From Sulfurovum sp. (lineage in GTDB: Bacteria > Campylobacterota > Campylobacteria > Campylobacterales > Sulfurovaceae): 39,951 nucleotides of DNA. The position numbers and the translations under genes are program-made. The notes beneath the pieces were generated by a model. That model was not told the DNA's origin, made no database searches, and saw only the letters and a program-made list of their open reading frames with translations. Positions 29,454 to 33,646 of the stretch are shown here, one piece after another. Each line of letters begins with the position of its first letter. The first letter of the stretch is position 1. The stretch is from contig JALWHT010000146.1 of assembly GCA_026983515.1 (NCBI GenBank), positions 1 to 39,951 of the forward strand, written 5' to 3'.

Positions 29454-30023
29454 ATGGCGGAAAAGAATATGAACAATGTCGACCAGATCAGGGAGTTGAT
29501 CTTTGGTCCTCAGATGAAAGAGTTTGAAGAAAAGTTCGACACACTCGGAAAAACAGTCAAAGAGATCGAGAAGCGCATACTGAGCACATTCCGTGAAGCT
29601 CACAGCAAATTGCAAAAAGAGACCGAACGCTCTCTCGAAGCGCTTGAACAGAAAGTAGACAACCTTGCTACCGCAACACAGAAAGAGCGCACCAAACTTA
29701 AAGAGCTTATCGATACCACCGATGAGACGCTGCAAACACAGATTCACAATCAGAAAAATGAACTTTTGACAAAAATAAAGATCATGAAAGAGAACATTGA
29801 CGATGAAAACCTGAAAATGAATGAAAATCTCAGGGAAATGAAAGCAGAGCTTGAAGCATCTCTGAATGAAGGGTTGGCAAACCTCGGTCATGACAAACTT
29901 TCACGTGATGCCATGGCAGGCATGCTGCTGGATGTTGCTATGAAAATCCAGGGGACAGACGCCGGATCGATTTTGGATGTAGGATCCCTTCTGACAGAGG
30001 AGTCAAAACCTGAAACAAAGTGA
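29454..30023 (+). CDS. Coiled-coil protein, first gene of putative GTPase operon
   Basis: Long heptad-rich helix (FEEKFDTLGKTVKEIEKRILSTFREAHSKLQKETERSLEALEQKVDNLATATQKERTKLKELIDTTDETLQTQIHNQKNELLTKIKIMKENI); ATG preceded by AAGGATAAATACT. Confidence 0.8.
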   Translation: MAEKNMNNVDQIRELIFGPQMKEFEEKFDTLGKTVKEIEKRILSTFREAHSKLQKETERSLEALEQKVDNLATATQKERTKLKELIDTTDETLQTQIHNQKNELLTKIKIMKENIDDENLKMNENLREMKAELEASLNEGLANLGHDKLSRDAMAGMLLDVAMKIQGTDAGSILDVGSLLTEESKPETK

Positions 30024-31947
30024 CACAGAGCTTGAACAGCTGAAGTCACTGCTTCTGTCTGATGAGCTTAAACTACTTCAAAAACTGGTATCAAAGGTTG
30101 AGCACCTTGAGTTTGAAACACTCAATGAAGAAGCGATCAAAAATAAGCTTCTTCCGCTTTTTGACGAGGTACTGCTGACACGTTTGCAGGAAAAAGACGA
30201 AGAGACGATCAGCATACTCTCCCGGTATTTGGCGCAAATCATTTCCAAAAGTGCAACGCAAGATCCAAATGGGCTTGAACAGGCTCTGCAAAGCATCATC
30301 TCTCCGGTAATCGCCAAAGAGATCTCTGAGAACAAAGAGAAGATGATCGATGCACTTTACCCCATCATGGGCGGTATGATCTCCAAATATGTCGCTCAGG
30401 CCATCAAAGAACTGATGGAGACCATCAACAAAAAAATTGAACAGGGATTTTCGGTTGAACGTTACAAACGTAAGCTCAAAGCAAAACTAAGCGGCGTGAG
30501 TGAAACCGAACTGCTGCTTGAAGAGAGCGCTGATGCACACATTCTGGCAATGTTCATTATCCATAAAGAGAGTGGACTGCTTATTAGTGAGGCACATACC
30601 GAAGAGAGCAACATCGGTGACCCCCACATGGTTGCCTCCATGGCAAGCGCTATCAAAGATTTTATCAATGACTGGATATCCAGCAACAAAGCTGAAAAAG
30701 AAGAAGTCCAGATACTCAGTTACGGGAAAGATACGCTCTACATAGAGAGTGCCGGTTCAGTCTACCTGATCGCCTTTCTTGACAGTGACCCGGACTATGA
30801 AATGCGCTCGGACATCAACGATTTTTTTGCCTCCGTCGTAAAACGTTATGCCGACTTTTTTCAAAGCTTCAACGGCGATGATGCAGCCAAAGAGGTACAT
30901 GAACTTTCAAAAAAAATGTATACATACCTCATTTCCCATAATGACAGGCAGCCCGACGGCAATAATACAAAATCATTCAACCCGGCAAAATGGGGATTGA
31001 TACTCCTGCTGTCGGCTTTGCTTTTTTATGTCGGATATCGTCTGAAAATATACTATGATATGAGTATGCTTGAAAACCGTGTAACCGAGCAAACAGGAGA
31101 AATCGTTACCATTCAAAACAAAGAGGGTCACTATATACTCAAAGGTATTCTCAAAGAAGCTTCCCATTTCAAAACAATTCAGAACATTCTTTCACAAAGC
31201 CCGTATGCAAAGGAGGTCGGCGTAGACCTTTCTCTCTCCGTAGGAGGTGTCGAAAAACTGATCCAACGGCAGAAAAAAAAGCTTGAAGCGCAAAAAGAGA
31301 TGTTACTTAAGCTGGATAATGCATATCAGAACGATTTACAGACATTAAAGCACCAGATAGTACCCGAACTAGACACTCTGAAAAAAGAACAAACACAACT
31401 GAAAAAGTCACTTGAAAGCTACAAAAACGAAAAACGTAAGTTACAACAGCTTATGGAACTGGAAAAAAATCTCTATTTGGCATTGGATCATGCTTTTGCA
31501 AACAATCCTTACTATGAAAAAAGAACCCACAGCCTGAATTTTGCGCCGCTGCATCTCTTTGAGGAGGGAAAAGTCGAACCTATAGGCACCAAACTTCCAC
31601 TTGTTACCGCGTCGTTTAAAAAGTATCTTCATGTGCTTTCCCCATACAAGCCTTATATCAAGCGTATTCTTATTCTTTCGTTCAGTGATACAAAAGGAAA
31701 TGCTGCACATAATCAATTACTGACAGAGAAAAGAGCAAAAAATATGCTGTCCTATTTTTTGAAAGATCCTGCTATTGCCCATTCGTCCATGCGTCCCCTC
31801 ATCCAAACCAAAGGAGAAGGGGAGAAACTTCCTGTTATTGTCAACGGGCAGGAAGATATGAATGCCTCAAGAAGGATCGAAATTCAATTCACACTGGATC
31901 ATGACAAAATCAACAGTATGATCAACCATTATTTGGAGAAACAATGA
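30010..31947 (+). CDS. Trans-envelope protein: large cytoplasmic N-terminal region, single TM, coiled coil, C-terminal OmpA-like domain
   Basis: TM at FNPAKWGLILLLSALLFYVGYRLKIYY; coiled coil KKLEAQKEMLLKLDNAYQ...ELDTLKKEQTQLKKSLESYKNEKRKLQQL; OmpA-like ILILSFSDTKGNAAHNQLLTEKRAKNMLSYFL...MNASRRIEIQFTLD. Start tentatively CTG at 30010 with GAGGAG 7 nt upstream; the listed ORF start (TTG 30184) cuts off a coherent helical N-terminus. Confidence 0.75.
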   Translation: MKQSDTELEQLKSLLLSDELKLLQKLVSKVEHLEFETLNEEAIKNKLLPLFDEVLLTRLQEKDEETISILSRYLAQIISKSATQDPNGLEQALQSIISPVIAKEISENKEKMIDALYPIMGGMISKYVAQAIKELMETINKKIEQGFSVERYKRKLKAKLSGVSETELLLEESADAHILAMFIIHKESGLLISEAHTEESNIGDPHMVASMASAIKDFINDWISSNKAEKEEVQILSYGKDTLYIESAGSVYLIAFLDSDPDYEMRSDINDFFASVVKRYADFFQSFNGDDAAKEVHELSKKMYTYLISHNDRQPDGNNTKSFNPAKWGLILLLSALLFYVGYRLKIYYDMSMLENRVTEQTGEIVTIQNKEGHYILKGILKEASHFKTIQNILSQSPYAKEVGVDLSLSVGGVEKLIQRQKKKLEAQKEMLLKLDNAYQNDLQTLKHQIVPELDTLKKEQTQLKKSLESYKNEKRKLQQLMELEKNLYLALDHAFANNPYYEKRTHSLNFAPLHLFEEGKVEPIGTKLPLVTASFKKYLHVLSPYKPYIKRILILSFSDTKGNAAHNQLLTEKRAKNMLSYFLKDPAIAHSSMRPLIQTKGEGEKLPVIVNGQEDMNASRRIEIQFTLDHDKINSMINHYLEKQ

Positions 31948-32450
31948 TATCTCGTAAAATTGTGCTCATAGGCGATTTTGCCACGGGGAAAACCAGTCTT
32001 ATCAGACGCTTTGTGGACAACCAGTTCAGCGATACCTACTTGAGTACCATCGGCGTAAAAATATCCAAAAAGATCATACAACTTGAAAACACAACACTAC
32101 AGGGCATGATCTGGGATATCGAAGGCGGTACGGAGACCAAACCTGTCAACAAGACATACCTCATAGGTGCACATGGTGCCATTTTGGTTGCAGACGGTAC
32201 CCGGTATGAAACACTGGAACACATAGCAATGTACCGTACACTTCTGCACAAAAACAATGCGAAGACCCCCTTTGTACTGGTCATCAACAAGTGTGACTGT
32301 CTTTCGGATGAAGCCCGTCATACTATAACAGAAAAGGCAACATCGATGTATGGAGATGTGGTAAAAAACATTTTCCTTACTTCTGCAAAAACAGGTGAGG
32401 GGGTGGAAGAGATGTTCCTAACCATCGCTTCGGAAATGATGGGTCCATAA
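31944..32450 (+). CDS. Ras/Rab-like small GTPase
   Basis: G1 GDFATGKTSL, switch I YLSTIGVKI, G3 WDIEGG, G4 NKCD, G5 TSAKTGEGVEEMF; 168 aa. ATGA overlap with upstream gene. Confidence 0.9.
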   Translation: MISRKIVLIGDFATGKTSLIRRFVDNQFSDTYLSTIGVKISKKIIQLENTTLQGMIWDIEGGTETKPVNKTYLIGAHGAILVADGTRYETLEHIAMYRTLLHKNNAKTPFVLVINKCDCLSDEARHTITEKATSMYGDVVKNIFLTSAKTGEGVEEMFLTIASEMMGP

Positions 32451-33646
32451 TGCATGTACAGGAAATACTGAAAGCGATCTACGACAACCACCATTATGAA
32501 TATCTGATTATTGACAACAATATGAATATTGTTGAGTTTTCAGATAAGGTATTTGACTTTTGTGAAACAGAAAACAAAAACTGTGAGCAGGTACCGCTCG
32601 AAGATGCGGTATATGAGTTATGCGGCATGCAGGAGGAGATACGCCGGATTTTCCTGGGAAAAGAAAAAAAATTCACCCTGCCTTATGTTTTCAAGGCTCC
32701 AGACCGCTACGTACATATCCATGTCAGCCCGGGACGCAGGCACAGTGTACCTGATGCAAACGGGTACCTGTACGAAACCGTGATCATCCTTTTTGAAGAC
32801 ATTACCCAGTTGGCGAAAATGCAGCAACAGATGGTACAGGAGGGGAATGAAAAAGCACTACTGTTAAAAACCATTTCTGAACAGAACCATCAGCTGCAGC
32901 TTTTCAATGAAGAGATGCAGCGCCTTGTAGATGAAGAGATCAGAAAAAATCTTGAGAAGCAGAAAATGCTGGAGCTTCAAGAGAGACATTCCCAGATGGG
33001 AGAAATGATCAGCATGATCATCCATCAATGGAAACAGCCGCTGAATGCCATACAGCTTATTGCCCAGGTATTAAAGATCAAAACCGAAAACAATACCTGT
33101 ACACCAGAATTTCTACTTGAAAAGCTTGAGGGTATCTTCAAGCAGGTAAAATTTATGGACCAAACCATCTACGTCTTCCAGAACTTTTTCAAACCTGCCA
33201 AAGAAAAAGTAAAATTCAACGTGTATGAAACGCTTGAGTCGCTTCTTGAGCTCGTACGCTATGAATATGAATATAAACATATCAAAATCGTTTTGGAAGG
33301 AGAAAAAGACGTTATCGGATTTGGCTATCCCAACGAATTTACCCAGGTCATACTGACCTTAATGAAAAATGCAAAAGATGCGTTTGAAGAACACCCTTCA
33401 AACAATATGCGGATTACCCTTGAAGTCCGGTCGGAAAAGGGGAAAGCATGTATTTGTGTGCGGGACAATGCAGGCGGTATTCCTGAGGACTTGATAGATG
33501 ATATTTTTGAACTCTATGTGACAACAAAAGAGGACGGCACAGGACTGGGACTGAACATTGCCAAACGGGTCATTGAAAACAATATGAACGGGCGTATTAC
33601 AGTACAAAACACCGAAGAGGGTGCAGAATTCAGAATTTTGTTATAG
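32450..33646 (+). CDS. Sensor histidine kinase with N-terminal PAS-like region
   Basis: H-box MGEMISMIIHQWKQPLNAIQ; N-box LMKNAKDAF; G1 VRDNAGGIP; G2 GTGLGLNIAKRVIE; no receiver domain. TAATG overlap with GTPase stop. Confidence 0.9.
   Translation: MHVQEILKAIYDNHHYEYLIIDNNMNIVEFSDKVFDFCETENKNCEQVPLEDAVYELCGMQEEIRRIFLGKEKKFTLPYVFKAPDRYVHIHVSPGRRHSVPDANGYLYETVIILFEDITQLAKMQQQMVQEGNEKALLLKTISEQNHQLQLFNEEMQRLVDEEIRKNLEKQKMLELQERHSQMGEMISMIIHQWKQPLNAIQLIAQVLKIKTENNTCTPEFLLEKLEGIFKQVKFMDQTIYVFQNFFKPAKEKVKFNVYETLESLLELVRYEYEYKHIKIVLEGEKDVIGFGYPNEFTQVILTLMKNAKDAFEEHPSNNMRITLEVRSEKGKACICVRDNAGGIPEDLIDDIFELYVTTKEDGTGLGLNIAKRVIENNMNGRITVQNTEEGAEFRILL

Follow-up and report, generated by a model that had tools for sequence, protein, structure and literature searches.

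The window analysed here is a 39,951-nucleotide stretch of a Sulfurovum sp. contig. The four genes of the original prediction are all present in its sequence where they were placed (Table 1), as are the overlapping junctions described for them: an ATGA at 31944 joins the stop codon of the OmpA-domain gene to the start codon of the GTPase gene, and a TAATG at 32450 does the same for the GTPase and kinase genes.

Table 1. Genes and features of the four-gene operon (window positions)
Feature	Position	Strand	Description and evidence
Coiled-coil gene	29454..30023	+	ORF; product of 189 aa; N-terminal motif VDQIRE[LI][LI]FG conserved
Envelope-spanning OmpA-domain gene	30010..31947	+	Pfam OmpA 4.2e-6; apparent CTG start
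Order of parts in the OmpA-domain protein, N- to C-terminal			helical N-terminus, predicted roadblock/longin-fold domain, one TM helix, periplasmic coiled coil, OmpA-type peptidoglycan-binding domain
Predicted roadblock/longin-fold region of the OmpA-domain protein	30490..30870	+	about residues 161-287; AlphaFold, Foldseek, profile comparisons
Small Ras/Rab-like GTPase gene, Rup Group 1 type by sequence	31944..32450	+	Pfam Ras 5.2e-30
Cytoplasmic histidine kinase gene	32450..33646	+	N-terminal PAS, linker, HisKA-type H-box, HATPase

Of the domains in this operon, OmpA, Ras and HATPase are backed by Pfam. The product of the first gene is soluble (maximum hydropathy 0.78), its weak Pfam matches (Exonuc_VII_L and others) are below the cut-offs and represent coiled-coil noise, and almost every complete locus has a homologue of it directly 5' of the OmpA-domain gene. 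The first ATG, GTG or TTG of the OmpA-domain frame occurs only at 30184, and the gene likely starts at the CTG at 30010, 5' of which there is a Shine-Dalgarno-like GAGGAG; both the CTG and the GAGGAG are conserved in two relatives (L039 and L041). The encoded protein, called the receptor below, has the single transmembrane helix that had been predicted; the helix lies near residues 329-347, which makes the cytoplasmic part about 325 amino acids long rather than about 280. Its OmpA domain retains the Asp/Arg pair (D560 and R575) with which such domains bind peptidoglycan, so attachment of the receptor to the cell wall is reasonable. The H-box of the kinase is HQWKQPL, starting at residue 192. 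The Zorya defence system (ZorAB) was considered because PADLOC reports a ZorB match, which spans only the coiled-coil/OmpA end of the receptor, and was rejected because there is no gene for a ZorA-like MotA-type motor; the neighbouring gene encodes the soluble coiled coil.

Gene order and output enzymes in other genomes

All true relatives recovered by the homologue search, which belong to the same taxonomic order, are accompanied by the GTPase gene. A scan seeded with the GTPase only, over genomes of 85,462 species, gave 35 loci, which come from Campylobacterota and Desulfobacterota and from one Bdellovibrionales and one cyanobacterial genome, and the receptor gene is directly 5' of the GTPase gene in 28 of the 32 that have more than 1.5 kb of upstream flank. 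Over both seed sets the figure is 52/58, these loci having been partly selected for the receptor. The receptor-seeded search finds the unit in cyanobacteria as well, and places the module in 8 of 299 Campylobacterota genomes, 19 of 147 cyanobacteria and 4 of 198 genomes from the phylum of a Desulfobulbus relative. The linkage of the GTPase and receptor genes is far beyond chance, and the homologues adjoin one another in other genomes in an order kept over several phyla, which bears out the original grouping of these genes as a unit. In some genomes the receptor and GTPase lie apart (L042/L092 and L050/L091).

A signalling enzyme is encoded directly 3' of the GTPase in 52 of 60 cases: 34 GGDEF diguanylate cyclases, the commonest output in the sample, 16 kinases and 2 class III cyclases (types labelled in part with small home-made profiles). 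The gene after the GTPase gene is thus a swappable output, which may be a histidine kinase, a diguanylate cyclase or a class III nucleotide cyclase, and several cyanobacteria carry two outputs in tandem, for example a kinase and then a cyclase. Whether the output is a kinase, a GGDEF protein or a class III cyclase, it often begins with a domain of the same PAS subfamily (38 cases). The N-terminal domain of the output models as PAS (pLDDT 84), so the earlier description of the window gene as a PAS histidine kinase agrees with structure prediction, while Pfam finds no PAS domain in it. The subfamily has 23 matches in 13 genomes, 19 of them inside these clusters; in the flanks of four cyanobacterial PAS-output genes (about 3-5 kb) no Rup-family GTPase was found. 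The PAS domain may not be the only possible point of contact for the GTPase, since at ten GTPase loci the N-terminus of the diguanylate cyclase is unlike this subfamily. On a quick tree of the GTPases, which includes near-copies, output type requires at least 5 changes, against 16.5 when shuffled, and 0 of 200 shuffles gave a number as low.

We consider it very unlikely that the operon is conserved merely because its genes are co-regulated, with no direct contact between the GTPase and the OmpA-domain protein: the gene order is identical over several phyla, the genes overlap, GTPase subtype co-segregates with output, and the OmpA-domain protein has a predicted GTPase-platform fold (see below). 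Another arrangement would run from the inside outwards: the GTPase, with the kinase or cyclase, would dictate which state a wall-anchored scaffold is in or where it sits, for polarity or cell-wall control, instead of responding to the wall. Such control would be in keeping with the role of MglA and MglB as polarity regulators (e.g. PMC2907295), and Pfam recognises no periplasmic ligand-binding domain beyond the coiled coil and OmpA. It nevertheless seems unlikely, as it is the enzyme that changes from locus to locus while the receptor, coiled coil and GTPase stay the same, which is what one would expect if one input were fitted with exchangeable outputs.

Three further observations concern relatives of these genes. 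In L193 (920-10267) a receptor homologue lies within an open frame of 3116 amino acids, mostly without Pfam match, and a coiled-coil gene precedes it. The cyanobacterial loci L125 and L129 encode receptor paralogues of about 1204 amino acids, with no Rup GTPase in the 15 kb region; Pfam finds BON and OmpA domains in that of L125. Finally, Sulfurimonas-type loci (L043, L047-L049, L052, L053, L055, L056, L058 and L072) have a divergent short histidine kinase gene 5' of the operon, and at L047, where this was checked, it adjoins the gene of an OmpR-type response regulator.

The GTPase and the cytoplasmic domain of the receptor

The window GTPase has G1 GDFATGKTS, G3 WDIEG, G4 NKCD and G5 SAK motifs, and its closest solved relative is Rab1. 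Its G3 motif, WDIEGG, has no Gln after the WDIEG, and only 6 of the 62 homologues surveyed have a Gln there (about 90% do not); the G3 Asp (Asp58) is invariant in alignment A2. In the MglA family this Asp is replaced by Thr (PMC3000849). The window protein keeps the Asp and is for that reason not a member of the MglA family, so MglA, with which the original prediction had compared it, is the wrong reference; judged from its motifs, it carries the signature of Rup Group 1. Group 1 was delineated by Wuichet & Sogaard-Andersen 2014 (PMC4316618), who describe the G3 Gln as missing and propose an unknown GAP.

The same paper suggests where the missing residue might come from, namely that the N-terminal domain of the output enzyme is the GAP and supplies a catalytic Gln in trans, which would leave the OmpA-domain protein as an anchor only. 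The general loss of the G3 Gln fits this, and Q130 of the window kinase lies immediately past the PAS domain, in the best conserved Gln column. Of 44 sequences, however, only 34 have Q in that column and the others have K, H or R, and the position may differ from the invariant Gln meant in PMC4316618. The receptor's predicted roadblock/longin domain is a better candidate for the GTPase regulator, and we regard supply of a Gln by the enzyme as improbable.

No Pfam domain was found in the cytoplasmic part of the receptor. Robl_LC7 (PF03259) has no match in it even at an E-value of 1, nor any match in the window operon, and PDB sequence searches with the region gave nothing useful. The AlphaFold model, built from 8 aligned sequences, has a mean pLDDT of 59 and reaches confident values only beyond about residue 150, with block-mean pLDDT of about 62-91 over residues 161-287. 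Its Foldseek matches at E<=0.001 are mainly MglB, Mon1-Ccz1, TRAPP, Ragulator and adaptor longin-type chains, the first four being platforms that bind GTPases; MglB ranks first by E-value, and the query coverage is larger for Mon1-Ccz1 and TRAPP. Two sequence tests, each weak alone, make no use of the model. Profile comparison with Pfam roadblock proteins gave 23.1, against at most 17.8 in 40 shuffles and 15.7 for unrelated families. The Pfam longin family PF19036 (Fuz_longin_1; Fuz/MON1/HPS1) matches 4 of 52 members (best 6e-5), and in the reverse search of 32 whole genomes the receptor domain provided the best match and the only two near-full-length matches, the best score there being 24.4 bits, under the curated cut-off of 26.1 bits. 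The prediction for the domain that precedes the transmembrane helix is therefore a roadblock/longin fold, as found in regulators of GTPases. Among proteins of this kind MglB is a GAP, active as a dimer, and Mon1-Ccz1 a RabGEF.

We note that the window's genome encodes one free-standing Robl_LC7 protein (124 amino acids). Behind its gene come two genes for unassigned proteins and one for a hybrid histidine kinase (L190, G000 contig C93:3867-7629 for the whole group), and no Rup-family GTPase was detected there; at L191 and L192 a similar kinase is likewise encoded near a Robl_LC7 protein.

Relation to known systems and proposed mechanism

The four-gene set, which had not been recognised as a described system, was in fact already published as the Group 1 Rup neighbourhood predicted in PMC4316618. 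That neighbourhood and the window share a GTPase without the G3 Gln, a coiled-coil protein, a protein with an unknown domain, a transmembrane segment and OmpA, and an output module whose N-terminal region is conserved; both also have no coupling to an MglB homologue (Robl_LC7) in the operon, in line with the paper's prediction that MglB homologues are not partners of Rup proteins. The outputs are described there as 'typically' a diguanylate cyclase/phosphodiesterase or a kinase, the Group 1 taxa as Bacteroidetes, Chloroflexi, Cyanobacteria and Gammaproteobacteria, and the eukaryotic Ras superfamily is proposed to have arisen from the Rup family. Relative to the passages of PMC4316618 used here, the present analysis adds members in Campylobacterota, Desulfobacterota and Bdellovibrionota, class III cyclase outputs, the roadblock/longin and PAS assignments, and a case of one receptor with two GTPases. 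Thus the gene set itself was known, and what seems to be newly recognised is the putative GTPase-handling domain.

Three other systems resemble parts of the unit. MglA/MglB of Myxococcus xanthus likewise combines a small GTPase with a roadblock-fold partner and a link to two-component signalling, but the window GTPase is of the Rup and not the MglA family, and its putative roadblock/longin partner, in which Pfam Robl_LC7 finds no match, forms one protein with a membrane and wall anchor. The actinobacterial conservons (Cvn) are also operons of a kinase, a roadblock protein, a further protein and a small GTPase; they differ in having an MglA-family GTPase and a free-standing MglB homologue, with no OmpA domain described, and in that PMC4316618 takes the GTPase to be the output of the conservon, a place that we propose for the kinase or cyclase in the present unit. 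Mon1-Ccz1 and related longin-domain RabGEFs provide the closest sequence profile (PF19036) and some of the best structure matches, and they have a Rab GTPase partner; they are eukaryotic, act in vesicle traffic and have no wall anchor, and a GEF role for the bacterial domain would be by analogy.

We think it probable that in the Group 1 Rup unit a wall-anchored receptor sets the nucleotide state of the GTPase, and that the GTPase in turn targets its enzyme at the PAS domain. The OmpA-domain protein would be held to peptidoglycan in the periplasm and cross the inner membrane once, with its roadblock/longin domain in the cytoplasm. Together with the coiled-coil protein it may build a platform at the membrane and there switch the Ras/Rab-like GTPase from one nucleotide state to the other, working as a GAP (like MglB) or as a GEF (like Mon1). 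In one of its states the GTPase would contact the PAS domain of the enzyme encoded by the adjacent gene and switch that enzyme on or off, a histidine kinase here and a diguanylate cyclase or class III nucleotide cyclase elsewhere. Wall sensing, both contacts and the direction of signalling are what we infer. The predicted roadblock/longin fold, the conserved gene order and the outputs that usually share one PAS subfamily strengthen the original idea of envelope sensing passed through a GTPase to a phosphorelay, which stands as the best-supported model, with the qualification that either of two other output types can take the place of the kinase.

In the open-access literature that was searched, we found neither experimental follow-up of Group 1 Rup after 2014 nor a regulator or effector contact assigned to it since then. 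The present reading offers two concrete contacts that can be tested separately, the roadblock/longin domain in the wall-anchored partner and the common PAS subfamily of the outputs. If it is right, several phyla use Ras/Rab-type GTPases together with longin-type regulators to connect the cell wall with c-di-GMP, cyclic nucleotides or phosphorelays. More tentatively, and with less than even confidence, the wall-anchored longin/roadblock regulator could switch a Rup GTPase that directly drives second-messenger cyclases or the kinase through a dedicated PAS effector, with one receptor serving two GTPases. Such a unit would be the bacterial equivalent both of Mon1-type GEF-Rab pairs and of the coupling of Ras to adenylate cyclase.

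Two GTPase-output pairs and a single receptor are encoded in the genome of the window. The second pair (L185, G000 contig C142:5271-6937) consists of a Rup-type GTPase gene followed by that of a PAS-GGDEF diguanylate cyclase, with no receptor gene beside them, and it probably shares the single receptor of this genome. One wall-linked input may therefore feed both a phosphorelay and c-di-GMP. In the relative L041 both GTPase-output pairs are found within one operon.
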